Shown one piece after another: positions 5,412-17,330 of a stretch of DNA of 21,906 nt. Under the pieces are notes generated by a model. The model was not told where the DNA came from. It ran no database searches and worked only from the letters and a program-made list of their open reading frames with translations. The number at the start of each line of letters is the position of its first letter. The stretch's first letter is position 1. The DNA lies in IMG/VR virus record IMGVR_UViG_3300032278_000130, positions 1-21,906 of that record; one strand, written 5' to 3'. The stretch is from a virus. Made by a program: the position numbers and the translations under genes.

Positions 5412-6728
5412 ATGTCCCTCACCGACGACGTCGCCAAGGCCCACCCATCCTCGACCGATCTCCATGAGGTCGGGTCGACCGGGCTGGTCCAGTACGGCGG
5501 CGAAGTCCGTGAAGACTTCCTCCGGCAACTCCAAGGCAAACGGGGCTACGCCACCTACCGGGAGATGTCCGACAACCACCCGGTTGTGGGGGCGATCCTC
5601 TACTCGATCGAGATGCTGGTCCGGGGCGTCGAATGGACGGTGACGCCCTCCGACCCGAACGACCAGCGGGCCGTGGACGAGGCGACATTCGTGTCGACCT
5701 GTATGACCGACATGAGCCATTCCTGGCCGGACACCCTGTCGTCGATTCTGTCGATGCTCACCTTCGGCTACTCGTACAACGAGATCGTCTACAAGCGTCG
5801 GCTCGGGGCTGAACGGGACAAGTCGTCGGAGAAATCGGACTACAACGACGGACGCTACGGGTGGCGCAAGTGGCCCATCCGCGACCAGTCGACGATCACC
5901 CGGTGGAAGTTCGACGACGCCGGGGGGATCGACGGAGCCTGGCAGTTGGACACCAACTCGGGGTCCGGCGAGGTGTTCCTCCCGATCCAGAAGTGCCTCC
6001 TGTTCCGCACGACGACGAAGCGAAACAACCCGCAGGGCCGGTCGATCCTCCGCAACGCCTTTGTCCCGTGGTATTTCCAGAAGCGCATCGCTGAGATCGA
6101 AGCCATCGGTATTGAGCGTGATTTAGCGGGCATGCCTGTCGCCCTGGTCCCGCCCCACCTCCTCAGTGACAACGCGACCAGCCAGGAGACCTCGGCGCTG
6201 ACCGAGATCAAGCGGATCGTCCGCAACATCCGACGGGACGAGCAGGAGGGCATCGTCTTCCCGTTGGCCTACGACCCGGACACGAAGCAGTTGGCCTACG
6301 ACCTGAAACTCCTCTCGACCGGTGGGCGACGGCAGTTTGATACCAACGCAATCATCGCCCGCTACGACGCCCGCATAGCGATGTCGTGCCTCGCCGACTT
6401 CATCCTCCTGGGCCACGACAAGGTCGGAACCCAGGCCTTGTCGGTTTCCAAGATTCAACTGTTTGCCGACGCGTTGGAGACCTGGGTGGCCGGTATCGCA
6501 GATGTCATCAACACCCACGCGGTGCCCAGGCTGATGCGCCTCAACGGCGTGGAGCCGTCGCTGTACCCGAAGTTGGACTACTCGACGCCACGCCAGGTCG
6601 ACATCTCGGTCATCGCCGACTACGTCTCCAAGTTGACCGGGGCCGGGGCGATCCTCCCCGACGAAGCCCTGGGCGAGCATCTGCGCTCCATCGCAGGGCT
6701 TCCGCAGGAGGAATCCGAGGCGGTCTGA
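5412..6728 (+). CDS. Portal protein (Mu gp29-like / DUF935 type)
   Basis: 438 aa. Diagnostic segments are YATYREMSDNHPVVGAILYS, VRGVEWTVTPSD, SILSMLTFGYSYNEIVYKRR, then KCLLFRTTTKRNNPQGRSIL and PWYFQKRIAEIEAIGIERDL, and near the end HDKVGTQALSVSKIQLFADAL. These match the portal family related to Mu gp29, which forms the dodecameric ring at the capsid vertex through which DNA is packaged and ejected. The gene follows the holin by one base and its stop overlaps the MuF start (TGATG). Portal followed by MuF and a protease is the usual head order; a terminase gene directly upstream is normal but is absent here, where lysis genes take its place. Confidence 0.88.
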   Translation: MSLTDDVAKAHPSSTDLHEVGSTGLVQYGGEVREDFLRQLQGKRGYATYREMSDNHPVVGAILYSIEMLVRGVEWTVTPSDPNDQRAVDEATFVSTCMTDMSHSWPDTLSSILSMLTFGYSYNEIVYKRRLGAERDKSSEKSDYNDGRYGWRKWPIRDQSTITRWKFDDAGGIDGAWQLDTNSGSGEVFLPIQKCLLFRTTTKRNNPQGRSILRNAFVPWYFQKRIAEIEAIGIERDLAGMPVALVPPHLLSDNATSQETSALTEIKRIVRNIRRDEQEGIVFPLAYDPDTKQLAYDLKLLSTGGRRQFDTNAIIARYDARIAMSCLADFILLGHDKVGTQALSVSKIQLFADALETWVAGIADVINTHAVPRLMRLNGVEPSLYPKLDYSTPRQVDISVIADYVSKLTGAGAILPDEALGEHLRSIAGLPQEESEAV

Positions 6729-9184
6729 TGCCCGGGACAGTACGGGTCGGTAGGCCGAACCGTATCCGGCACATTCCTCTGTCCTGGCCGGTGGCCAAGG
6801 CGAGGTCCAACCACCAACCCAAGTTCCGTCCGGTTGGCGACGCCAAACTCCGAGGGCGGGAGCAGAGCGTGGGACGGGTCATGGAGGAGATGTTCTCCGC
6901 TATGCCGTCGCCGGAGGGGTGGATCAACGGGCGCATGACCTCAGGCGAATACCTGACCCGCGCCAAGCGGGTCGCCGAGCCTTATGTCACGGAGATCGCC
7001 GAGATCCTTCAACCCACGTTCAACGAGGCTGCGATCATGGGCCAGGACCGGATCAGAGCCAGCGTCAACGAACAACTGAAACGGCTCGGGAGTCGGCTTC
7101 GCCTCACCGACGCCAAGGGTGAGGTCACCAAGCGCCGCCGGGTCGAGGAGGTCGGGATTGAACACCTCGAACGCCACCCGCAGAGCCGGTGGGCACCGAT
7201 AGGGGAGGAGGCGTTCGACACCGTCAACGCCGCTTCGGTCGAGTACGCCGAGTTCCGTTCCGGCACCCTGGTCACCGGCATGTTGGAGGAACAGCAGCGG
7301 GTGGTGCGTGACCTGATCGGCGAGTCGTTCACCACCGCCCAGACGTTCGAGACAGGCCGCAGCGTCGTCGGGTTGACCTCCCAGCAGACCGCCTCGGCGT
7401 TGCTCGAAATGCTCGACGAGATGTCACCGTCGACTCCGCTGGCCCGCAACCTGGCGTCGTTCCGTGGCGTCAACGCCCACGGTCTGACCCATCCCTGGGA
7501 GCGGGCGGTGGCCCGGTTCGCCGAACGGGAAGCCGACGCCCTGGCCGCTCGGGGGATAACCGGGGCGAAGGCCTACGGCAAGGTCCAGGCCAAGAGCCAA
7601 CGCTACGCCAACAAACTACGCCGGTCGCGTTCCCGCATGATCTCCCGCACCGAGATCAAGCGTGCCCAGGTCCAGGGGCAACTATCGTCGATGCGCCAGG
7701 CGGTCGACGACGGGTTGGCCGACCCTAGGACCGCCGGGAAGAAGTGGATCACCGGGGCGACCGATGTGTGCCCGATGTGCTCGGACCTCGGGTTCAGCAA
7801 GGCGATCCTGCTCGACCAGTCGTTCCACGGGGTTGGTGATGGCCCTCCGGCCCATCCGAACTGCCGGTGCGACCTCGACTTCACCCACGACATCAAGACC
7901 GCTCCCATCCCACGCGGTGCTGGCGACCCGAACTTCCGACCGGGCACCCCAGAGAATCCGATCACCTGGGAGTTCCCGTCGGGGTTCAAGACCCAGCCGT
8001 CGATCACCACTACGTTCAAGCCGCCAGGGTGGAAGCCGCCGCCGTCCATCCCGATCACCCCCCAGCCGCCAACCGTTCAGGCACCAGCGGGTCAGAAACC
8101 TGGCCCGCAGGCCGCCTACGACGACCCGCCTCCGCTGCCGAGCGCCAACAAACCTTCCTCGCCGCACACCGTCGCCGACGACATCAACTATCCCAACAGC
8201 AAGCAGTACCGGGAAGCGGTCACGCCGGTCGTCCAGCGGCTGGACGAGGTGCTTGTCCCGCCCGCACCGATCAGGGGCAAGACGACCAACATTCTGATCA
8301 AGAAGAAGAAGCCGGGGAAGCACGGCCCGGAGGGCACATTCGGGCCGTTCAAGTCGGGTCCGAAACCCAGAAGGCCGTCGTATCCCACGAGGCCGAGCCG
8401 CTATTTCAGAGACGCAGATACAGGTGAGCGTTACCTGCTCCCCGAAGACGAGTACGCCCGGCTCGTCATCAAGTACGAGGACGATGTGGCCAAGTACAAC
8501 CAGGCGATCGAAGACTGGAAGATCCGCTACGACGCGTGGCTCGACGACGAGGGGGTCGCACAGATCACGATTCAAGACGACCCCTCGAAGATGAAGAGTC
8601 TGGGTTTCCGGCAGAACACCTTTGCCCACGAGTACGGGCACCGGCTCGACATTGTGGTCGACCCCGATGCGACATCTGTCTGGACAGGCACCACGTTCCG
8701 CACCGACGACATGATGAGGGTAGCCCGCAAGATCGTGAAGGACGGGGGGGCTGCCGACGTCCTGTCCATCCCCGTGTCGGCGATGCCCGCCGAGCATCAA
8801 GTGTTGTGGGGGTTCTTCCTGGAAGCGACCAACTCCCAGGCGGCCCGCCGGATCATCCAGTACCACATGGCCCGAGCCAGGGCGTACCCGTCCCTCGGAG
8901 CGGATGTCCTTCAGCGCCTCGAAGAGCAAGCCCAGTACTACATCGACTACTGCCTGGGCGCGGACGAACTGTGGGCGCGGGCCTTCAACCAGTGGTTCGC
9001 CACCCGGCACGGAACCGCAGTGATGATCGAGGACATGGCTATCCAGGCCAGCGGGTCGATGGCCACCAGCGCCGGACCAGGCGAGGCGATCTGGAATGGG
9101 TTTCAATGGAGGCAGGACGAGTTCGACGAAATCATCGCACCCTTGGTCGAGAAGATCCTGCGAGCGAGAGGAAACATCCTGTGA
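6728..9184 (+). CDS. MuF-type minor head protein fused to a C-terminal HExxH metallopeptidase-like domain
   Basis: 818 aa from the ATG at 6728 (TGATG overlap); the open frame continues upstream but only as a shadow of the portal gene. The MuF core is at about residues 290-390: SRTEIKRAQ (306-314), CPMC (C348, C351), then PPAHPNCRC (C379, C381). Residues about 400-490 are a Pro-rich linker. Residues about 600-760 contain FAHEYGHRLD with H634-E635-x-x-H638, followed 109 residues later by ADELWARAFNQW with E747, the pattern of zincin-like metallopeptidases (two His and a distal Glu). MuF proteins are injected or internal head proteins, and several carry C-terminal enzymatic or toxin domains. This one could cut a host or capsid protein. 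The MuF call is strong and the metallopeptidase call good. Confidence 0.85.
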   Translation: MPGTVRVGRPNRIRHIPLSWPVAKARSNHQPKFRPVGDAKLRGREQSVGRVMEEMFSAMPSPEGWINGRMTSGEYLTRAKRVAEPYVTEIAEILQPTFNEAAIMGQDRIRASVNEQLKRLGSRLRLTDAKGEVTKRRRVEEVGIEHLERHPQSRWAPIGEEAFDTVNAASVEYAEFRSGTLVTGMLEEQQRVVRDLIGESFTTAQTFETGRSVVGLTSQQTASALLEMLDEMSPSTPLARNLASFRGVNAHGLTHPWERAVARFAEREADALAARGITGAKAYGKVQAKSQRYANKLRRSRSRMISRTEIKRAQVQGQLSSMRQAVDDGLADPRTAGKKWITGATDVCPMCSDLGFSKAILLDQSFHGVGDGPPAHPNCRCDLDFTHDIKTAPIPRGAGDPNFRPGTPENPITWEFPSGFKTQPSITTTFKPPGWKPPPSIPITPQPPTVQAPAGQKPGPQAAYDDPPPLPSANKPSSPHTVADDINYPNSKQYREAVTPVVQRLDEVLVPPAPIRGKTTNILIKKKKPGKHGPEGTFGPFKSGPKPRRPSYPTRPSRYFRDADTGERYLLPEDEYARLVIKYEDDVAKYNQAIEDWKIRYDAWLDDEGVAQITIQDDPSKMKSLGFRQNTFAHEYGHRLDIVVDPDATSVWTGTTFRTDDMMRVARKIVKDGGAADVLSIPVSAMPAEHQVLWGFFLEATNSQAARRIIQYHMARARAYPSLGADVLQRLEEQAQYYIDYCLGADELWARAFNQWFATRHGTAVMIEDMAIQASGSMATSAGPGEAIWNGFQWRQDEFDEIIAPLVEKILRARGNIL

Positions 9185-9378
9185 GTGACATGGAACCACC
9201 GTTCGAGGAAGTAGCCGCAGCGGAGGGCATGAGGTTTGATCTGGTCCTCAACGCGGACGGCACCCCCAAGTGGGGTGAGGCCAACCGCGACTACGTCGAC
9301 CTGCTCATAGCCCGGCAGGGGTTCCCCGTCCGAGGCGAGGACACCGACACGGCCGATGAGTTAGAGTCCCCAGCATGA
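9181..9378 (+). CDS. Small protein between MuF and protease genes, unknown function
   Basis: 65 aa from a GTG at 9181 that overlaps the MuF stop as GTGA, with AGAGGA about 9 nt upstream; an ATG at 9190 is possible but too far from that site. Acidic protein (MEPPFEEVAAAEG, GEDTDTADELESPA) with a short central segment MRFDLVLNADGTPKWGEANRDYVDLLIARQG. No recognised family. Its stop overlaps the start of the XkdF-like gene (ATGA). Coupling on both sides supports it as a real gene; an assembly or scaffold accessory role is only inferred from position. Confidence 0.7.
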   Translation: MSDMEPPFEEVAAAEGMRFDLVLNADGTPKWGEANRDYVDLLIARQGFPVRGEDTDTADELESPA

Positions 9379-10820
9379 CTAACCTTGTCGACGCCTATGG
9401 CGAAGTGGTCACCAAAGCCGAGATGAAGACCGATGACGGGTTGGAATACCCGGCCAAGGCCTACGCCTATGTTGGCGACCCCGATGTGGTTTCCACATGG
9501 AAGTTGCGGCTCTGGGAGACACCCGAACTGAAAGAAACCCGGCGGCAGATCGGCATGGCCGTGGCCGCTCTCGGGCCAGGGGGTTTCCGAGGCAACCGGG
9601 TTCAGATCCCAGCCGATGATCGAGCAGCCGTCAAACGGCGGGTGCTCAACGCCTGGCTGAAAGTCTGGCCCGACAAGGAACGCGCCGACGCGCCGCGTGT
9701 CCTCCTGTCGACCAACCGGGTGACCCACACGGCGACTGATGCGCGTCAGACGATGATGGAGCGGCTGTACGAGGGCCACGGGCAGAAGACGGCGGCTGCC
9801 GATCGGCGGCAGCAGTTCTTGAGTGACGGGGAGGTACACCCCGCGGCCAACCTGAACGAGCAGACCGAGGTCGAGGCCGCCGGTTACGACGAGTGGGAGA
9901 AGGACCACGACTACGGCGACACCGCCGGTGGCCAGGACGCCATGACGCACCTGCTGATGGCGTACCGGTTGATGATCGACCACCCGGAGTGCGAGCCGCT
10001 CCTCGCTCCACTCATGGAGATCATCCACGCCAAGCAGGAGTTGATGACGGAGGTGATGGAGCCTGAGGTTCCGCTGGTGCTCATCGAGGAGCAGAAAGAC
10101 ATCCGTGAGGAGGGTGGGCAGTTCTGCGTCTACTCGACGAACGGGCGGGCGTTTGGGTGTTACGCCTCGGCCGATGAAGCCCGGAACCGGCTAGAGCAGA
10201 TCGAACAGTTCCGAACCGAGCGGGTGGCGTCGGCGTCGACCGAACAACTCGCCGCCGACCACGACCACCTCCACGCCATGACGCGGGTGGCCGAACCTCA
10301 TGTGATCGTTCACAACCTCATCGAGGAAGAACTGGAATCCCGTGGTGTCGCCCCGCCGTATCTCCTGGGCGACGTCGAAGACAAGTTGGCGATGATCGGC
10401 ACCCAGATGGGTGGGCTGCTGCCGCTGGCGAAGCAGGCCGAGCACCGGTACACCCTCGGCCCCGTCTACGTCCCCGACATGGAGGATGCCCACGGGGAGT
10501 TCACCGACCCGGACACGCTTCAGAAGGCGCTGTGGGATTGGGTCCGCAAGGACGACCGGCGCATCTTCATCCAGCACTCTGACAAGGTGGCGGGCGAGAT
10601 GGTCGAGGCCTTGACTTGGCCGTTCCCCATCGAAGCCGACATGGAGGTGCCGGACCAGGGTGTCACCAAGCAGGTCTTCCCCGCCAACACGCCGTTCCTG
10701 GGTGTGGTGTGGGAGCCGTGGGCGTGGGACTTGGTCAAGGCTGGGGAGTTGCGGGGTTACTCGATCGGTGGGCGTGCCCGCCGGGTCGAAGCGGATCTCC
10801 CCCAGGCTGCTCTCGTTTGA
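9375..10820 (+). CDS. XkdF-like putative serine protease / prohead maturation protein
   Basis: 481 aa. The C-terminal part (about residues 361-475) has the XkdF pattern: GPVYVPDMEDAHGEFTDP, KDDRRIFIQHSD, WPFPIEADM, then FLGVVWEPWAWDLVKAGELR and GYSIGGRARRVE. XkdF proteins are predicted proteases of phage heads (first known from the PBSX element) that process scaffold or capsid. The N-terminal third (LGPGGFRGNRVQIPADDRAAVKRRV) looks like the small motif before Mu-type protease domains. The middle has QFCVYSTNGRAFGCYASADEARNRLEQI-like sequence seen in other XkdF-containing proteins. It is the last rightward gene before the leftward block. A major capsid gene would be expected next but is not there. 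Confidence 0.82.
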   Translation: MTNLVDAYGEVVTKAEMKTDDGLEYPAKAYAYVGDPDVVSTWKLRLWETPELKETRRQIGMAVAALGPGGFRGNRVQIPADDRAAVKRRVLNAWLKVWPDKERADAPRVLLSTNRVTHTATDARQTMMERLYEGHGQKTAAADRRQQFLSDGEVHPAANLNEQTEVEAAGYDEWEKDHDYGDTAGGQDAMTHLLMAYRLMIDHPECEPLLAPLMEIIHAKQELMTEVMEPEVPLVLIEEQKDIREEGGQFCVYSTNGRAFGCYASADEARNRLEQIEQFRTERVASASTEQLAADHDHLHAMTRVAEPHVIVHNLIEEELESRGVAPPYLLGDVEDKLAMIGTQMGGLLPLAKQAEHRYTLGPVYVPDMEDAHGEFTDPDTLQKALWDWVRKDDRRIFIQHSDKVAGEMVEALTWPFPIEADMEVPDQGVTKQVFPANTPFLGVVWEPWAWDLVKAGELRGYSIGGRARRVEADLPQAALV

Positions 10821-10831
10821 CGCCTCCCAGG

Positions 10832-10933
10832 CCCACAGAGGGGCGATCTGGGGGGATTCCAGGGTAGTTCCGCAGGGTTATGCCATCCCCGGAGTGGCTC
10901 GCCTTAGAACGGCGTTATGCGGGCCGGGGGATC
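10832..10933 (+). repeat. Structured intergenic element, copy A (inverted partner of 14457-14558)
   Basis: Lies between convergent genes and starts 11 nt after the XkdF stop. Reading this copy on the plus strand against 14558-14457 on the minus strand gives an ungapped 102-nt alignment with 68 identities. Both copies fit one fold: an outer 6-bp stem (CCCACA with TGCGGG, one mismatch here), a 4x4 internal loop, an 8-bp stem (GGCGATCT with AGAACGGC, two mismatches here) and an inner stem (GGGGAT with ATCCCC). Both share an unpaired CAGGGTTAT block. It may act as a terminator, a structured RNA or a recombination site; none is proven. Confidence 0.65.
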
Positions 10934-10935
10934 GG

Positions 10936-11193
10936 TCAGGAAGGTTCGTCTTCCGAGGGGCCGAACGTCGCCGGGAACTCGACGACCTCGCCCTGGGCGG
11001 CGAGCGGAACGGGCACCTCGATCTCGGACAGGGTGAGTGGCACCTCGTCGACGTCGATGAGCATGATCCCGGTCCCGCCGATGAACGGCGACTCGACGGC
11101 CCCCATCGTGGTCAACACAGCGGGCAGGAGTTCCGCTGGTTCGTCGACGTTCATGTCGGCCACGATGAAAGTCAGGCGGCGGTAGACAGTCAT
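10936..11193 (-). CDS. Small conserved-type protein, unknown function
   Basis: 85 aa from the ATG at 11193, which overlaps the upstream stop (ATGA type). The longer open frame upstream is discarded because it lies over the neighbouring gene. The protein begins MTVYRRLTFIVADMNVDEPAE and ends in an acidic tail (FGPSEDEPS). The pattern of alternating hydrophobic residues suggests a compact alpha/beta fold. No cysteine cluster, membrane segment or enzyme motif is visible. It is the last gene of the leftward operon, so it is distal and probably weakly expressed. Function unknown. Confidence 0.7.
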   Translation of the reverse strand: MTVYRRLTFIVADMNVDEPAELLPAVLTTMGAVESPFIGGTGIMLIDVDEVPLTLSEIEVPVPLAAQGEVVEFPATFGPSEDEPS

Positions 11194-11525
11194 TGACTGT
11201 CGTCCGATGAAAGGCCCGGGCGACCCAGGGCACCCCGGATCGCCTCGGCAACGTGCCGGATGATCTCGGCGGGGACTGAGCCGTGCCTGCCGAACTTCTC
11301 GGCGACGTAGCGCGTGGTCAGTGTCCCGTTCTTCGCCATGACATAGGTCTGGCCGATCGGATCGGTGGGCAGCCACACCGTGACCACGCAGTATTCCTCG
11401 GCCGAGCCGCCGCCCATGAACCCGTCGTGGGGGAGATCGGCGACCAGAACCGAGTACCGCCAGCCGTCGCCAGGTTGGATCTCATGGACGAGGGGTAGTC
11501 CCACCTGGCCGTTGTTGGCGCTCAT
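11190..11525 (-). CDS. Hypothetical protein of the leftward operon
   Basis: 111 aa from the ATG at 11525 (overlap with the previous stop). Sequence opens MSANNGQVGLPLVHEIQPGD, has a beta-rich middle (WRYSVLVADLPHDGF, EEYCVVTVWLP) and a helical C-terminus (AEIIRHVAEAIRGAL). No family recognised. The frame is kept through tight coupling with both neighbours and has no competing start with a better ribosome site. Function unknown. Confidence 0.7.
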   Translation of the reverse strand: MSANNGQVGLPLVHEIQPGDGWRYSVLVADLPHDGFMGGGSAEEYCVVTVWLPTDPIGQTYVMAKNGTLTTRYVAEKFGRHGSVPAEIIRHVAEAIRGALGRPGLSSDDSQ

Positions 11526-11734
11526 CGGTTGATCACCGGCATGATCGTGTCGAGCACCTGGGCGGTGGCTTTGAGGGAATAGTCGTTGACCAGCCGCTCG
11601 GCTTCGGCCCGGCTGATCTGTTCGGCCTGCTCGGCCTCGACCAAGGGGCGCAGTTCGCAGCAGCACTCCAACTGGCCGTCGTCGTCGTAACAGGTCGCCT
11701 TGTGGGCGACCTCGGGTGGGCGGTTGACATTCAT
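11522..11734 (-). CDS. Small Cys-containing helical protein, unknown function
   Basis: 70 aa from the ATG at 11734. The N-terminal half has four cysteines close together (KATCYDDDGQLECCCELRP), possibly a metal site or disulphide knot. The second half is a charged helix (AEQAEQISRAEAERLVNDYS). It is coupled by 4-nt overlaps to genes on both sides. No recognised family. The cysteine cluster is the only functional hint. Confidence 0.68.
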   Translation of the reverse strand: MNVNRPPEVAHKATCYDDDGQLECCCELRPLVEAEQAEQISRAEAERLVNDYSLKATAQVLDTIMPVINR

Positions 11735-11889
11735 GGCATCTCCGTTTCGTCGGTCAGATAGTAGGGGCCGAGTGGGTCACTGTCGTACCTGTCGACCCGG
11801 CCCCGGAGCCACCAGCCGAACCCGGCCAGGGCGACCGGCGCGATGATGAACTGCCACAGCGGGTTCGTCATGTAGAGGACGGCGATCAC
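11731..11889 (-). CDS. 52-aa single-pass membrane peptide
   Basis: Read from a GTG at 11889 that overlaps the previous stop as GTGA, ending in an ATGA overlap with the next gene. The protein is VIAVLYMTNPLWQFIIAPVA, continuing LAGFGWWLRGRVDRYDSDPL and a short acidic tail. Residues about 10-28 form one hydrophobic segment rich in aromatic residues, followed by RGR, so the C-terminus is likely cytoplasmic. No family recognised. It fills exactly the gap between two coupled genes, which supports it as real. A role at the host membrane is possible. Confidence 0.65.
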   Translation of the reverse strand: MIAVLYMTNPLWQFIIAPVALAGFGWWLRGRVDRYDSDPLGPYYLTDETEMP

Positions 11890-12335
11890 GACGCCACCTT
11901 CTCAGGCTGGAAGATCGGACGGTTGACTTCCAGCACCTCGGCGAGGATGCCGTCGTACCGTTCGGACCTGTCGGCCCAGCCGAACGGCTCGGGGGTTCTC
12001 CGAGAACGCCCACCGGGTTCATGGATGCGCCGGGCGATCGTCCAGCCGTACTGCTTGAAGTCGACGACGTAGGTGCCGTTGTCCCCGTTGTCGGTGTCCA
12101 GGGTCCGGCACTTGCCGATCCCGAGGCTTAGGGTGCCGCCGAACCAGTTGCCGATGATCTGGCACAGGCGGGCGACTCCGTAGTCGTCGGGCCGGACGCC
12201 CAGTTGCTTTGCTGCGTCGAGGAAGGCGGTGACCGAATCCGGTCCACCGTTCCAGTGGAGGTAGATCCCGACCGAGTCGGGCTGGACCGTGTTCCAGTTC
12301 TCCTCCTGAAATGCTATTACTGCTCTGTTACCCAT
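11886..12335 (-). CDS. Conserved phage protein beginning MGNRAVIAF, unknown function
   Basis: 149 aa from the ATG at 12335, overlapping the previous gene by 8 nt. The N-terminus MGNRAVIAFQEENWN, the segment GIYLHWNGGPDSVTAFLDAA and DDYGVARLCQIIGNWFGGTLSLGIG match a widespread phage and bacterial protein type. I recall it as conserved but uncharacterised. No catalytic motif can be named with confidence. It is the best conserved of the small genes in the leftward operon, so it may be useful for finding related phages. Confidence 0.75.
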   Translation of the reverse strand: MGNRAVIAFQEENWNTVQPDSVGIYLHWNGGPDSVTAFLDAAKQLGVRPDDYGVARLCQIIGNWFGGTLSLGIGKCRTLDTDNGDNGTYVVDFKQYGWTIARRIHEPGGRSRRTPEPFGWADRSERYDGILAEVLEVNRPIFQPEKVAS

Positions 12336-12639
12336 GATGGGCCTCCAGTCTCGTTGTGGCTATCAGGTGGTGGTATTCGATAATCGTCTGGTGTCGCCAC
12401 GACTCGCCGTCGAGGTCGAGGCCCAGGGCCAGGAAGCCCCGGTGGACGTTGCGGCGCATCTTCTTCAGGATCGCCCCGACTTGACGCTCGGTGGCCCTGT
12501 GGGTCTGGTAGAAGCCCCTCATGTAGTGCCGGTACCCGTATGCCCAGAAGTAGGCGTGGCCCTTGTAGTCGACGGTGCCGACCCGGGCCTCGTCGTCGCG
12601 CAGGTATTGGAACTCGTCGGTGACGGTGGTGGTGCTCAT
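12328..12639 (-). CDS. Basic, aromatic-rich hypothetical protein
   Basis: 103 aa from the ATG at 12639 (ATGA overlap with the previous gene). It begins MSTTTVTDEFQYLRDDEARV, then has an aromatic stretch HAYFWAYGYRHYMRGFYQTHR and a basic helix GAILKKMRRNVHRGFLAL. Basic character and helices would allow nucleic acid binding, but no defined motif is visible. Function unknown. Confidence 0.68.
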   Translation of the reverse strand: MSTTTVTDEFQYLRDDEARVGTVDYKGHAYFWAYGYRHYMRGFYQTHRATERQVGAILKKMRRNVHRGFLALGLDLDGESWRHQTIIEYHHLIATTRLEAHHG

Positions 12640-13361
12640 GCTTTCACCAGATCCTCGCCCGCCCAGGGGGTTTCGGTGCGGGCGCTGAACGCCGCGTAGT
12701 AACGCTGGCGATCGGCGGGGCTGAACTGCCACAGGCCTCGATCTTCCAACTTGTAGTGGTCGCGGGAGCAGGAACCGATGGACTCGGTACAGCCGTTCTC
12801 GTCCATCGGGGTGACGATGTAGACCTGTTCGCCGTCGTGGATGATGGCCACCGTCACCGGGTTCTCCCCGAGTGGCCCGGTGACCGTCACCAAGGTTGGT
12901 TCCGGGGAGGGGATGGTCGAGGCGTCGATGTCGTATTCCTCGCCGCGCTGGGTGTTGAGGTATTCGGCGTGCTTTGACTCCGGCCGGTTGCGGATGAACT
13001 CGATGCCCTCAGGCGTCGTGTCGAGGGAAGTCAGGTAGAAGAAGTCGTCGAGAACCTTGACGATCGCTTCGTGTCGCTTCCCGTTGTAGCAGATGATCAT
13101 GCCGGGTTCGAGGGCGTTAGCCCCGACCTTGACGGTGTCGACGATCGACAACGTGGTGGAGGTGCTGCGCTCGACCCAAGTCCGGGCCTGGGCCAAGGTG
13201 TCGAAGCAGGCGCCGGAGCCGTCCAGTAGTTGGACCTCGTAGCAGAGGCGCGTCCCATAGCGGTCGACGCTTGGCTTTAGGTGGCCGACCTGCTTGCTGT
13301 CGACGGTGATCGGGCGGTCGAACCGAGGATCGCCCCGGTGGATGACTGCGTTGGTTTTCAT
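12636..13361 (-). CDS. Hypothetical protein, 241 aa, with its own strong ribosome site
   Basis: Start chosen at the ATG at 13361, which has AAAGGAG about 9 nt upstream (MKTNAVIHRGDPRFDRP). An in-frame ATG at 13451 overlaps the preceding stop (TGATG) and would add 30 Thr/Ser-rich residues; I consider it less likely but not excluded. The protein has an N-terminal segment VDSKQVGHLKPSVDRYGTRL followed by SGACFDTLAQARTWVE, a middle YNGKRHEAIVKVLDDFFYLT and a C-terminal part VTVAIIHDGEQVYIVTPMD. These look like beta-strand repeats. No family recognised. It is the longest gene of the leftward block. Confidence 0.68.
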   Translation of the reverse strand: MKTNAVIHRGDPRFDRPITVDSKQVGHLKPSVDRYGTRLCYEVQLLDGSGACFDTLAQARTWVERSTSTTLSIVDTVKVGANALEPGMIICYNGKRHEAIVKVLDDFFYLTSLDTTPEGIEFIRNRPESKHAEYLNTQRGEEYDIDASTIPSPEPTLVTVTGPLGENPVTVAIIHDGEQVYIVTPMDENGCTESIGSCSRDHYKLEDRGLWQFSPADRQRYYAAFSARTETPWAGEDLVKA

Positions 13362-13450
13362 AATGGCTTTCTCCTTTGTTGTTGTTCCCATCGTCACCGT
13401 CGAGGACTCGAACCTCGATGTCTGCCTGTCGGCGGTGGTGCGGTCGGTCA

Positions 13451-13696
13451 TCAGACGACCTCCTGACCGGCGTCGGTGAGTTCGACGTTCTCGTTGGGCC
13501 GCACGAAGGCGAGGACAGTCTGGCCGTCGTTGAGGTTCGTGTGGTCGCCGAGGCGTCGCCCGTGGAACAGGTCGCTCGGCTGCGTGGCCCTCTCGGGGTC
13601 TGTCCCGATGACGACGATGGTGGTCCCGTCGCCGTCGGCCTGCCACTGTGCGAGGCGCACGAAAGCGTCGAAGTGGGTGCGGGTGATGTCGTTCAT
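13451..13696 (-). CDS. Small hypothetical protein
   Basis: 81 aa from the ATG at 13696, in a TAATG overlap with the upstream gene. Sequence starts MNDITRTHFDAFVRLAQWQA and continues with GTTIVVIGTDPERA and HTNLNDGQTVLAFVRPNE. It looks like a small alpha/beta protein. No catalytic or metal-binding motif is visible. Coupling to its upstream neighbour supports it being translated. Function unknown. Confidence 0.66.
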   Translation of the reverse strand: MNDITRTHFDAFVRLAQWQADGDGTTIVVIGTDPERATQPSDLFHGRRLGDHTNLNDGQTVLAFVRPNENVELTDAGQEVV

Positions 13697-14064
13697 TACT
13701 TGACCTCCGTGTTGTTCGGGCAGGTGGTGACGAGGAAGTGCGGGAAAGCCTCGGCGATTCGGTTACGGACCACGTTGGCGAGGAACCAGCGACCAGTCCG
13801 CTTGCTCTTGGTGTAGGCCACCTGCCCGTGACATGCCGCGCACCGGAAGATGGAGGCGTTACCGGCCTGCGAGATGACCCGCTTGCCCGAGTCTGTCGTC
13901 CAGATTTGGACCGTGACGCCCTGGCGCTCCGCGAAGCACGAGTTGCAGGTGGTGACCCACTGGCCGTCACGGCTCTTGTGGAGGATGTCCGTTAGTTCGC
14001 CGCAGAACTGGCACGGCTTCATGCCGTGCTTGGCTACCTGCGGGAAGTAGGTGATGGTGCTCAT
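13696..14064 (-). CDS. Zinc-finger-type protein with four CxxC/Cys motifs
   Basis: 122 aa from the ATG at 14064, overlapping the previous stop (ATGA). Cysteine pairs at CQFC, CNSC and CAAC plus a late C (VTTCPNN) suggest one or two zinc ribbons: CQFCGELTD...CNSCFAE is a classical treble-clef/ribbon spacing, and FRCAACHG begins a second. The rest is basic and aromatic (YTKSKRTGRWFLANVVRNR). Probably binds nucleic acid or acts as an adaptor. Family unknown, zinc binding is inferred from the cysteine spacing. Confidence 0.72.
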   Translation of the reverse strand: MSTITYFPQVAKHGMKPCQFCGELTDILHKSRDGQWVTTCNSCFAERQGVTVQIWTTDSGKRVISQAGNASIFRCAACHGQVAYTKSKRTGRWFLANVVRNRIAEAFPHFLVTTCPNNTEVK

Positions 14065-14396
14065 GCTGCCTCCTCGGCTTCTAGTTCGTCCCAGGTCTTG
14101 AAGACGATGTGGCTGGTGCCCCGCTCGATCGCGTGGACCAGGTTCTTGCCCGTCGAGTGGCTGATGATGCCCTCGTCGGTCTGGATCTCGAAGGTGCCTG
14201 CCCGGTGGCTGCCCCGCCCGCAGACCGTCGCTGCCAGGGCGATGATCTCGGCGAGGCCCATGTCCCGGTCGAGGTGGGTCGAGAACTCGTGGACGTTGAA
14301 CGTGGCGAGGCGGTTGCTCTCGGCCTTCTTGAAGAAGTCGACCCGGCCGCCAGCGGCGAAGATCGGGTTCTGGTCCTGGTGGTGGTCCTCGCGCAT
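14061..14396 (-). CDS. First gene of the ten-gene cassette, hypothetical protein
   Basis: 111 aa from the ATG at 14396. A strong -10 hexamer ends 6 nt before this ATG, so the transcript probably starts at or next to the start codon and the gene would be leaderless. The frame is open further upstream to 14495, but that would run through the promoter. The protein reads MREDHHQDQNPIFAAGGRVD, then FFKKAESNRLATFNVHEFST and a C-terminal GTSHIVFKTWDELEAEEAA. A HEFSTHLDRDMGLAE segment is suggestive of a folded helical core. No family recognised. Confidence 0.7.
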   Translation of the reverse strand: MREDHHQDQNPIFAAGGRVDFFKKAESNRLATFNVHEFSTHLDRDMGLAEIIALAATVCGRGSHRAGTFEIQTDEGIISHSTGKNLVHAIERGTSHIVFKTWDELEAEEAA

Positions 14397-14402
14397 GCCT
14401 GG

Positions 14403-14432
14403 ATCATAGGGGGGCCTAGGGACAAGGGGCAA
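14403..14432 (-). promoter_or_regulatory. Leaderless promoter of the gene starting at 14396
   Basis: On the minus strand, TATGAT (14408-14403) is a near-consensus -10, with TTGCCC (14432-14427) as -35 at 18-bp spacing. Six bases separate the -10 from the ATG, so transcription should start at the start codon. The spacer holds a C-rich motif shared with the promoter at 15812-15840. Confidence 0.65.
14409..14425. promoter_or_regulatory. Shared G-run / CTAGGG promoter motif, copy 1
   Basis: Plus-strand GGGGGGCCTAGGGACAA matches 15 of 17 positions with 15824-15840. Both lie inside leftward promoters, here immediately next to the -10. A common operator for one repressor or activator is the simplest reading. 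Confidence 0.5.
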
Positions 14433-14456
14433 GTCAATCCACGGGATTCGGCGAGG

Positions 14457-14558
14457 GATCGCCCCACCCGCAGAGGGGCGCTCTACGGCGATCACCCTGG
14501 GCGGGGGGATAACCCTGTCAAACCAGGCCAGAAGCGCCCCAGAGCGCCGTTATGCGGG
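14457..14558 (-). repeat. Structured intergenic element, copy B (inverted partner of 10832-10933)
   Basis: On the minus strand it starts 12 nt after the stop of the gene ending at 14571. The fold is complete here: CCCGCA pairs with TGCGGG, then a 4x4 internal loop, then GGCGCTCT pairs perfectly with AGAGCGCC, then an inner stem GGGCG with CGCCC. Ungapped identity to copy A is 68/102, with one inner base pair switched from G-C to C-G. The interval from here to copy A holds exactly ten leftward genes and their promoter. Confidence 0.68.
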
Positions 14559-14570
14559 TCTCCGGGGCTG

Positions 14571-15092
14571 TCAGCCATCAGCCACCACCATGCCCGGCGA
14601 TTGGCGGCTGCTGCCGAAACCCTCCGGCAGGTCGTAAGCCACGTTGCGTCCGTAGTCCATGCCCAACTTGACGCCCCGCTTCCGCATCGGGGCCTTGCCC
14701 GCTGGATAGACGTAGAGCCAATACTCGTTGGCCGTGTCGACCAGTCGACCCTCGGCGGGGAACAGTTGGACCGCTTCACGGTCGGCTCCCACCACCTCGT
14801 CCTTGATCTGTTGGAGGTGCCGCCAGGGGACGTGCGGCGTGCGGTTGTGGTTGTGGACTGCCAACTCGACGAACCCGTCCCGGCTGCCGTCGAGGAGGTG
14901 GACGTTGACCGTGTAGCGGTCGTTGCCCCAGGTCTCGTCGGAGATGAGTTGGTCGAGGGCTTCGTCACCGATGTCGGGGAACTTGGCCCGGACCATCTCG
15001 GCGACCTCGGCTCGCTTCTCCTCGCGGTACCACTCGGGGTCTTTGACCAACGGCTGCCAGACCTTCTTCGGGGTCGGCTTCTTCTTGCTCAT
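14571..15092 (-). CDS. Conserved phage protein (DUF7694-like), unknown function
   Basis: 173 aa from the ATG at 15092 (ATGA overlap). The N-terminus is Lys/Pro-rich (MSKKKPTPKKVWQPLVKDPE), then a helical part. The C-terminal half carries DGSRDGFVELAVHNHNRTPH, WRHLQQIKDEVVG and AVQLFPAEGRLVDTANEYWL. I recognise the last as the hallmark of a small domain found in many phages and actinobacteria (x-AVELYPAESRLVDTANQYHLW), catalogued as a domain of unknown function. The biochemical role is not known. It ends 12 nt before the structured element copy B. Confidence 0.75.
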   Translation of the reverse strand: MSKKKPTPKKVWQPLVKDPEWYREEKRAEVAEMVRAKFPDIGDEALDQLISDETWGNDRYTVNVHLLDGSRDGFVELAVHNHNRTPHVPWRHLQQIKDEVVGADREAVQLFPAEGRLVDTANEYWLYVYPAGKAPMRKRGVKLGMDYGRNVAYDLPEGFGSSRQSPGMVVADG

Positions 15093-15328
15093 GTGGTCGC
15101 CTCCTCCGGGTCGTGTTCGAGGTTGTCGATCACATCCCGCATCAGGCCACGGAGCGTCTCGGTGATCTCCGCATACCAGATGTCGTAGGCGACGCCGTCG
15201 TCCTCGACGGGGACTCTCTCGAACTTGTGCTCCAAGAGGTAGGCCTTGACGTAGGCCTGGGTGTCGGGGTCGTCGACTAGCAGTTGCGACAGTCGACGAA
15301 CCACCTCGTCTCGCTGGGTGGTGCTCAT
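15089..15328 (-). CDS. Small acidic hypothetical protein after whiB
   Basis: 79 aa from the ATG at 15328, which overlaps the whiB stop (ATGA). The longer frame to 15451 lies over whiB and is discarded. The protein is acidic and helical (MSTTQRDEVVRRLSQLLVDD, IWYAEITETLRGLMRDVIDN, LEHDPEEATT). No motif or family recognised. Tight coupling to whiB makes co-regulation certain if the operon is transcribed; a functional link is only a guess. Confidence 0.7.
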   Translation of the reverse strand: MSTTQRDEVVRRLSQLLVDDPDTQAYVKAYLLEHKFERVPVEDDGVAYDIWYAEITETLRGLMRDVIDNLEHDPEEATT

Positions 15329-15609
15329 GCTGCTTCTTCCTTCCTGCGTCGGGCCTCGACCCGGCGCTGCTTTGTGGTTAGACCTCCCCAGATGCCGAAC
15401 CGCTCCTTTGTCTCGATCGCATGACCGAGGCAGTCGGAGCGGACCGGGCACCCGGCACAGATCACTTTGGCTTCGTTGCCTGACTCGCCGTGGTCGATGA
15501 AGAACAGCGACGGGTCAGCGTCGGCGCAGGCTGCGTCGACCGCCCAGGGGGTCGGGACGAGGTCGCGCAAACCGACCCCGTCGATGAGTTGGTTGTCGGA
15601 GGCGGCCAT
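15325..15609 (-). CDS. whiB: WhiB-family Fe-S transcriptional regulator
   Basis: 94 aa from the ATG at 15609, in a TAATG overlap with the upstream zinc-ribbon gene. The four cluster-binding cysteines are C28 (DAACAD), C51, C54 (VICAGCPVRSDC) and C60, giving the C-x22-C-x2-C-x5-C pattern of the family. G72-I-W-G-G76 is the conserved turn that contacts the sigma factor, and the basic tail (KQRRVEARRRKEE) matches the usual DNA-binding end. WhiB proteins carry a 4Fe-4S cluster and bind the housekeeping sigma factor to redirect host transcription. In phages of mycobacteria, homologues are known to interfere with host whiB genes. It sits second in the leftward operon, so it is probably made early. 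This is the best single marker of an actinobacterial host. Confidence 0.9.
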   Translation of the reverse strand: MAASDNQLIDGVGLRDLVPTPWAVDAACADADPSLFFIDHGESGNEAKVICAGCPVRSDCLGHAIETKERFGIWGGLTTKQRRVEARRRKEEAA

Positions 15610-15779
15610 TATCGGTCGTCCTCGACTTCGGCGTCGCAGATCGGGCAAGCGCCGTTATCGCGTCGAAGCATCCTGCGCCCGATGTACCAGGAACAGGAGC
15701 GGCAGCGGACAACGCCACGCAGGTGCCGGTTGTCGGTTCTCGGCCTCGGGAGGTCGAGCGGGTCGTGAATGGTGGTCAT
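15609..15779 (-). CDS. 56-aa zinc-ribbon protein, first gene of the leftward operon
   Basis: Read from the ATG at 15779, with a strong AGAGGAG ribosome site. The protein is MTTIHDPLDLPRPRTDNRHL, then a C26-x2-C29 and C45-x2-C48 pair (CRSC and CPIC) separated by a basic, aromatic stretch (SWYIGRRMLRRDNGA). This spacing is that of a zinc ribbon. Its stop shares a base with the whiB start. I infer a nucleic-acid or polymerase-binding adaptor, co-expressed with WhiB. No exact family can be named. Confidence 0.72.
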   Translation of the reverse strand: MTTIHDPLDLPRPRTDNRHLRGVVRCRSCSWYIGRRMLRRDNGACPICDAEVEDDR

Positions 15780-17253: not shown

Positions 17254-17263
17254 TTGAATCGCA

Positions 17264-17301
17264 GCCGGGACGGCGGTGAGAGAAAGACCCGCCGTCCCGG
17301 C
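17264..17301 (+). terminator. Strong hairpin downstream of recT
   Basis: GCCGGGACGGCGG (17264-17276) and CCGCCGTCCCGGC (17289-17301) are perfectly complementary over 13 bp with a 12-nt loop. No U-run follows, so it may be a GC-type terminator or attenuator, or protect the recT transcript. It lies 30 nt before the next gene. Confidence 0.6.
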
Positions 17302-17330
17302 CGCAACGGGAATGAGGAAGGGAGTCCTCG

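Follow-up and report, generated by a model that had tools for sequence, protein, structure and literature searches.

Two related quasi-palindromic elements as candidate 3'-end signals around a ten-gene cassette in a phage DNA fragment

Homology and orientation of the two elements

The 21.9-kb linear virus record IMGVR_UViG_3300032278_000130 (21,906 nt; hereafter the window) carries two quasi-palindromic elements, c1 and c2, on either side of ten small leftward genes. The homology of c1 and c2 is beyond doubt; they would be diverged copies of a single quasi-palindromic 3'-end element, phage-specific and approximately 92 to 100 bp long. We give an even chance to the explanation that they are phage-specific 3'-end hairpin elements, signalling transcript ends or processing, around a moron-like ten-gene operon. 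A third copy was found in another viral contig, L083, and searches were extended with a covariance model, R1. The two elements of the window are as follows.

10832..10923, minus strand: element c1, a 92-nt quasi-palindrome (alignment and shuffles; L083 homologue; R1 92.7 bits, R1 having been built from it)
14467..14558, minus strand: element c2, a 92-nt quasi-palindrome, in the same orientation as c1 by its ends (alignment, L083 homologue, R1, folding)

An original prediction had described these elements as an inverted pair. The gap-free inverted alignment that it reported, of positions 10832-10933 (+) with 14558-14457 (-), was reproduced at 68/102, and the local alignment of c1 and c2 scored 38, the highest score among 2000 dinucleotide-shuffled pairs being 19. 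The copies are approximately 67% alike. Across the whole window, no other place exceeded 50/102, apart from c1 and c2 matched mutually or to themselves in other orientations.

Since each copy is nearly palindromic, c1 and c2 align in both orientations. The outer 18 nt of the arms match at 16/18 and 16/18 (32/36) when compared directly and at 13/18 and 13/18 (26/36) when inverted. A stretch of 40 nt including the leftward stop codon is likewise a direct repeat (73%). Conversely, for the 56-nt interior the score is 16 in inverted and -2 in direct orientation. The claim of an inverted pair therefore holds for the interior but not for the outer ends, nor for L083, which is direct with both copies. 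On the minus strand, c1 reads CCCGCATAACG...CCCCTCTGTGGG and lies 12 nt past the stop codon of the leftward gene 10936-11196, while on its other side the stop codon of the rightward gene 9375-10820, which is convergent, is 11 nt away. c2 is placed 12 nt past the stop codon of the leftward gene 14571-15092. These distances agree with the 11 to 12 nt given originally.

The third copy was recovered with a pattern for both ends of the element, which returned one further contig, L083 (positions 9794-9886), among 2.9 million viral contigs. Its direct alignments scored 35.5 with c1 and 39.5 with c2, compared with 18 and 19.5 for the inverted ones. On the minus strand, c1, c2 and L083 share the order TGA, a gap of 12, 12 or 26 nt, then CCCGCATAACG ... 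CCCCTCTGYGGG, with 10936-11196, 14571-15092 and terL, respectively, as the upstream gene. All three possess imperfect terminal inverted repeats of approximately 24 nt whose asymmetry is conserved (GAGG left, GTTA right). Across the three copies, both arms are nearly invariant in their outer 18 nt, and the interior has diverged. Because the copies share one orientation after a leftward stop codon, c1 and c2 appear to be 3'-end elements of leftward genes and no mirror-image pair. Their common position and orientation also count in favour of a role at transcript ends.

The original prediction had further entertained an invertible cassette, in which recombination between c1 and c2, as inverted sites, would flip the ten genes. 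The gap-free inverted alignment could be taken in this sense, as could the homologues of two cassette genes found near terS in the relatives L022 and L057, where they are oppositely oriented relative to the portal gene. However, the ends of c1 and c2 are direct with the 56-nt interior alone inverted, the leftward genes go on past c2, and the L022 and L057 genes lie in a different place too, such that a simple inversion fails to connect the two states. In agreement with the original prediction, the proteins tested, from the cassette and its neighbourhood, gave no recombinase match, the host and the remainder of the genome being unseen. We consider an invertible cassette highly improbable. The flip of the interior would be best explained by polymerase template switching between the arms of the inverted repeat.

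Further homologues are very few. Four more end patterns run on viral contigs and one on genome contigs yielded no clear member besides L083; the remaining pattern-scan matches were rejected on reading, for lack of the opposite arm or for coding-like sequence. The covariance-model search suggested by the original prediction, conducted with R1 and covering 47 loci as well as 35 whole records, produced no further clear member, and BLASTN of the region, c2 and L083 against phages gave nothing useful. Rfam covariance models returned no match at c1 or c2 up to E=1 and none in L083, L014 or L010 up to E=0.5. When relatives were scanned for dyads of unusual length, c2 and the relative L119 ranked high and c1 did not; above-threshold counts were only approximately twice those of shuffles.

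At the 3' end of terS in L005, L006, L008, L010 and L004, a hairpin of approximately 100 nt spans the end of the gene and its stop codon, with plus-strand z of -4 to -5 in L005 and L010. A profile, e3, scored these hairpins at 18-21 bits (L005, L008, L004) and approximately 14 bits (L010), shuffles reaching at most 9.9. They are weakly similar to c1, c2 and L083 and might be homologous to them, but the 5' arm is the natural acidic TerS tail, which is shared by relatives that have no hairpin.

Folding, conservation and the case for transcript ends

On the plus strand, c2 ranks first in stability among the contig's 1902 windows of 92 nt; on the minus strand it is in the top five, with z of approximately -4.7 on both. 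RNAalifold folded the three copies (c1, c2 and L083) into a single long interrupted hairpin of 30 pairs. The common pairing register, in which 88.9% of 90 cells pair across the three sequences, stood above 498 of 500 shuffles in the control that had been proposed at the outset. A common register does exist, but c1 breaks it with A.C and G.G mismatches and shows no stability of its own (see below), which leaves the claim of the same fold for both copies weak. Covariation, the other structural claim made originally, is weakly supported: 3 of the 30 pairs change on both sides among the three homologues, all in the inner helix, whereas 13 of the 19 outer-arm pairs never vary. Constraint on the ends of the element seems to act on sequence at least as much as on structure.

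A parallel was found in L014, a relative with 85% portal identity that possesses its own pair (A and B) of approximately 88-nt elements, unrelated in sequence to c1 and c2. A is located directly at the terS stop codon. B lies at the stop of a leftward gene that faces an XkdF-like gene, between the two. The two score 30 inverted and 14.5 direct and, given that the genes lie on opposite strands, this inverted homology gives both the same sense relative to the upstream gene. A folds as a long hairpin (z of -1.8 to -2.6). The L014 pair would constitute an independent case for 3'-end elements. In the window and L014 alike, a stable fold is missing from the copy that follows the XkdF-like gene at the convergent junction.

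How such elements might operate can be outlined. c2 would serve the four-gene WhiB/DUF7694 unit directly upstream of it and c1 the ten-gene unit, which c1 would also part from the convergent structural genes. The RNA of the element is predicted to be a long irregular hairpin, strong in c2 and decayed in c1, such that c2 would end or cut the WhiB/DUF7694 transcript and c1 the ten-gene transcript. The transcript end could be made or marked by termination, or by RNase III-type processing together with end protection, for which a U-tract would be unnecessary. With c2 and c1 ending transcripts and a putative promoter of its own, the ten-gene unit would be independent and moron-like, at a variable module junction. 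Presumably, the element may travel together with gene modules.

Several observations weigh against this explanation. c1, with z of approximately +0.2 to +0.3 on either strand, folds no better than shuffles and ranks far from the top of the contig windows; L014 B also folds no better than shuffles. The outer arms are conserved and not covarying, as much a sign of sequence-specific recognition as of structure. No U-tract follows any of the three copies on either strand, a terminator consensus scan found none at c1 or c2, and mycobacterial RNA polymerase reportedly, to judge from the title of reference 18 in PMC4351075, needs a U-tract. If homologous, the terS-end hairpins of L005 and L010 would have the opposite sense to their gene. 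The original suggestion of a new structured RNA or terminator class consequently divides in two. A terminator-like 3'-end element is plausible from position, the stability of c2 and recurrence at gene ends in L083 and L014, whereas a new RNA class is unsupported in view of the c1 fold and of only three clear members in all the material searched.

The fold of c1 and the scarcity of homologues might instead suggest functionless relics, namely two related intergenic palindromes left by duplication with no selected role. Nevertheless, the outer 18 nt of the arms have stayed nearly invariant in three diverged copies whose interior diverged, and L014 has an analogous pair at the same place. We regard relics as improbable.

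The ten-gene cassette and module boundaries in relatives

The window comprises a rightward run of tail fibre, lysis, portal (phrog_113) and head morphogenesis genes up to that of an XkdF/RNA-ligase-like protein ending at 10820, leftward genes from 15779 down to 10936 that include a WhiB-like regulator and a DUF7694 protein, and replication genes (RecT-like, O-like, SSB) running rightward from approximately 16 kb. By portal, the nearest cultured relatives are Arthrobacter phages (47%); the closest relatives overall are metagenomic fragments with portal identity up to 92%. On account of WhiB and the Arthrobacter phage portals, the window is probably a phage fragment of an actinobacterial host. 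Its features around c1 and c2 are listed here.

5412..14570, no strand: block of portal, head morphogenesis, XkdF-like gene, c1, ten genes and c2; absent in L109
9375..10820, plus strand: XkdF-type protease/RNA-ligase-like gene (PHROGs 14859, 1530, 3017), which closes the rightward structural run
10936..14396, minus strand: ten-gene leftward operon of small genes (open reading frames, ORFs; nearly all without family match)
14403..14432, minus strand: promoter-like site (TTGCCC, 18 nt, TATGAT; consensus match and sequence)
14571..15779, minus strand: four further leftward genes beyond c2 (DUF7694 protein, WhiB-like, others; ORFs and family matches)

As first described, exactly ten leftward ORFs, tightly packed, occupy 10936-14396 and are preceded by a promoter-like site. 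c1 and c2 bracket these genes, although not the whole leftward run, which continues past c2 with the four genes 14571-15779. The promoter-like site (14432-14403), with c2 on one side and the first cassette gene on the other, matches 9/12 consensus positions, one such site being found against 0.5 expected in shuffles. Its -10 lies 6 nt ahead of the ATG at 14396, as with leaderless mRNA. PHROGs, Pfam and NCBIfam were blank for the ten cassette proteins, except for a weak Lar-like match. This concerns the Cys-rich small protein of 13696-14064 (-), matching the restriction-alleviation protein Lar below the cut-off (PF14354, E=0.0015). In the gap before gene 12636-13361, the minus strand of 13362-13450 contains a tRNA T-arm-like sequence, CGAGGTTCGAGTCCTCG; ARAGORN found no tRNA at 13362-13450, and the sequence may be what is left of a tRNA, or an attP-like core.

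Relatives differ at the positions concerned. In L024, L016 and L020, a gap and then HL, a small membrane-protein gene, come after the XkdF-like gene, while L014 has a leftward block of approximately 2.2 kb between the XkdF-like gene and HL; taken together, these arrangements indicate a cassette site after the XkdF-like gene. In the window, the neighbour on the right is a different one. L083 has terL, the element and HL in succession, with portal to XkdF absent there. Genes and element also occur elsewhere in relatives: the two cassette genes near terS in L022 and L057, and the element at the terL|HL junction in L083, again after a stop codon. In L109, the homologue of 14571-15092 faces a holin-like gene across a short gap and the 9.1-kb block from portal to c2 is missing. 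In L106, this homologue is 85% identical and leftward genes then continue without the element. No element was seen after the 14571 homologue in L106, L107, L108 or L109.

The elements therefore seem to sit at joints of exchanged modules that are operon ends too, the two roles not being separable on present data. This raises the possibility, which we regard as less likely than a role at transcript ends, that c1 and c2 are module-joint sequences, short shared boundaries for module exchange by homologous or illegitimate recombination, with any RNA role secondary. c2 forms the right edge of the block absent in L109, c1 lies at the right end of the portal-XkdF block, and the L083 element occupies the terL|HL junction, where relatives hold portal to XkdF. 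There is also precedent in Cluster O mycobacteriophages, in which single genes are flanked by 17- and 24-bp direct repeats and recombination has been invoked (PMC4351075). Against this, operon ends coincide with module ends anyway, the holin|portal junction (5410/5412) has no element, and copies of approximately 67% similarity make poor substrates for homologous recombination.

Differing positions between phages, including the absence after the 14571 homologue in L106 to L109, would also befit a miniature inverted-repeat transposable element (MITE), here a non-autonomous transposon of 92 bp, bounded by imperfect terminal inverted repeats of approximately 24 bp and mobilised by a host transposase. 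The conserved ends, variable interior and asymmetric imperfect terminal inverted repeats of c1, c2 and L083 are of this kind. Yet the flanks of c1 and c2 contain no target-site duplication, that of L083 being limited to CCT/CCT; weak similarity extends into the flanks on both sides, the copies are highly diverged and single-end scans found no autonomous partner. We think a MITE unlikely. The mobile-cassette ends of the original prediction survive weakly, in that the elements lie at boundaries of modules lacking or moved in relatives; no target-site duplication (c1, c2), transposase, recombinase or autonomous partner was found.

A broader reading, which we likewise judge unlikely, holds that each phage has its own paired quasi-palindromic boundary elements, with spacers that flip, directing both module joints and transcript ends; copies would be alike within a genome and different between genomes (c1/c2; L014 A/B). 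Were it true, exchangeable gene blocks would be marked by genome-specific palindromes, making cassette boundaries findable in metagenomic phages. Likewise, c1, c2, L083 and L014 A/B would be a natural test set for transcript ends without a U-tract in high-GC actinobacteria.

Other structured regions were noted. In L119, a 95-nt hairpin (z of -4.8 on the plus and -6.8 on the minus strand) follows the XkdF-like gene (approximately 8740-8835) at the position equivalent to c1, with unrelated sequence. In L025 (5065-6197) and L012, approximately 1.1 kb of apparently non-coding DNA between terL and portal contains many imperfect repeats and hairpins, including a 129-nt unit repeated at 77%. It gave no Rfam or tRNA match, though GTAGCTCAG-like pieces are present, and may be a large structured RNA. 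The top folding signal of the window (z of approximately -7.6) is a 13-bp perfect GC-rich dyad (GCCGGGACGGCGG...CCGCCGTCCCGGC) at 17254-17330, between the RecT-like and replication genes, and is unrelated to c1 and c2.

Comparison with known systems

Phages of the T7 type process their RNA with RNase III at long irregular intercistronic hairpins with internal loops. c1 and c2 are also long and irregular with internal loops, but differ in the weak fold of c1 and in their conserved end sequences.

Integron attC sites are imperfect inverted repeats of approximately 60-140 nt after a stop codon, with conserved ends and variable interior. c1 and c2 resemble them in size, in the pattern of ends and interior, in place and in the unpaired spacer between outer and inner stems. 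Unlike attC, they lack paired RYYYAAC/GTTRRRY boxes (the left end is GCAGAGG, the right end GTTATGC, and TAAC faces CCTC in a loop), they are two sites around ten genes, and no integron integrase was seen. Proposals of attC, dif-like and packaging sites were dropped, as defining features or evidence were lacking.

MITEs and repeats of the REP/ERIC type are short intergenic palindromes with imperfect terminal inverted repeats near stop codons, a description that also fits c1 and c2. These differ in having no target-site duplication, no high-copy family of near-identical members and no transposase partner found.

Template switching at imperfect inverted repeats homogenises the arms and inverts spacers of 2-5 bp (PMC8604942). 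The arms of c1 and c2 are similarly kept, with the spacer inverted between relatives and signs of arm homogenisation, those of c2 being nearly perfect; however, their spacer, at 56 nt, is much longer. Factor-independent terminators of Cluster O actinobacteriophages consist of 12-18 bp stems followed by T-rich tracts (PMC4351075). Both are stem-loops at operon ends, but c1 and c2 span approximately 92 nt with an irregular stem, conserved end sequences and no T-tract.

Two related intergenic palindromes at operon ends are fairly ordinary in themselves, and the observation, modestly interesting, is mostly explained by known kinds, namely punctuating elements around a moron-like cassette. In tailed phages, moron cassettes comprise a coding region flanked by promoter and terminator between genes that are adjacent in relatives (PMC4378225). 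The cassette described here differs in possessing ten genes and not one, mutually homologous flanking elements, a putative terminator role and no closely related empty site. It resembles a moron in that its leftward genes have a promoter-like site, a 3' hairpin element and neighbours that differ in relatives, and in that L014 has another leftward block at the same gene end.

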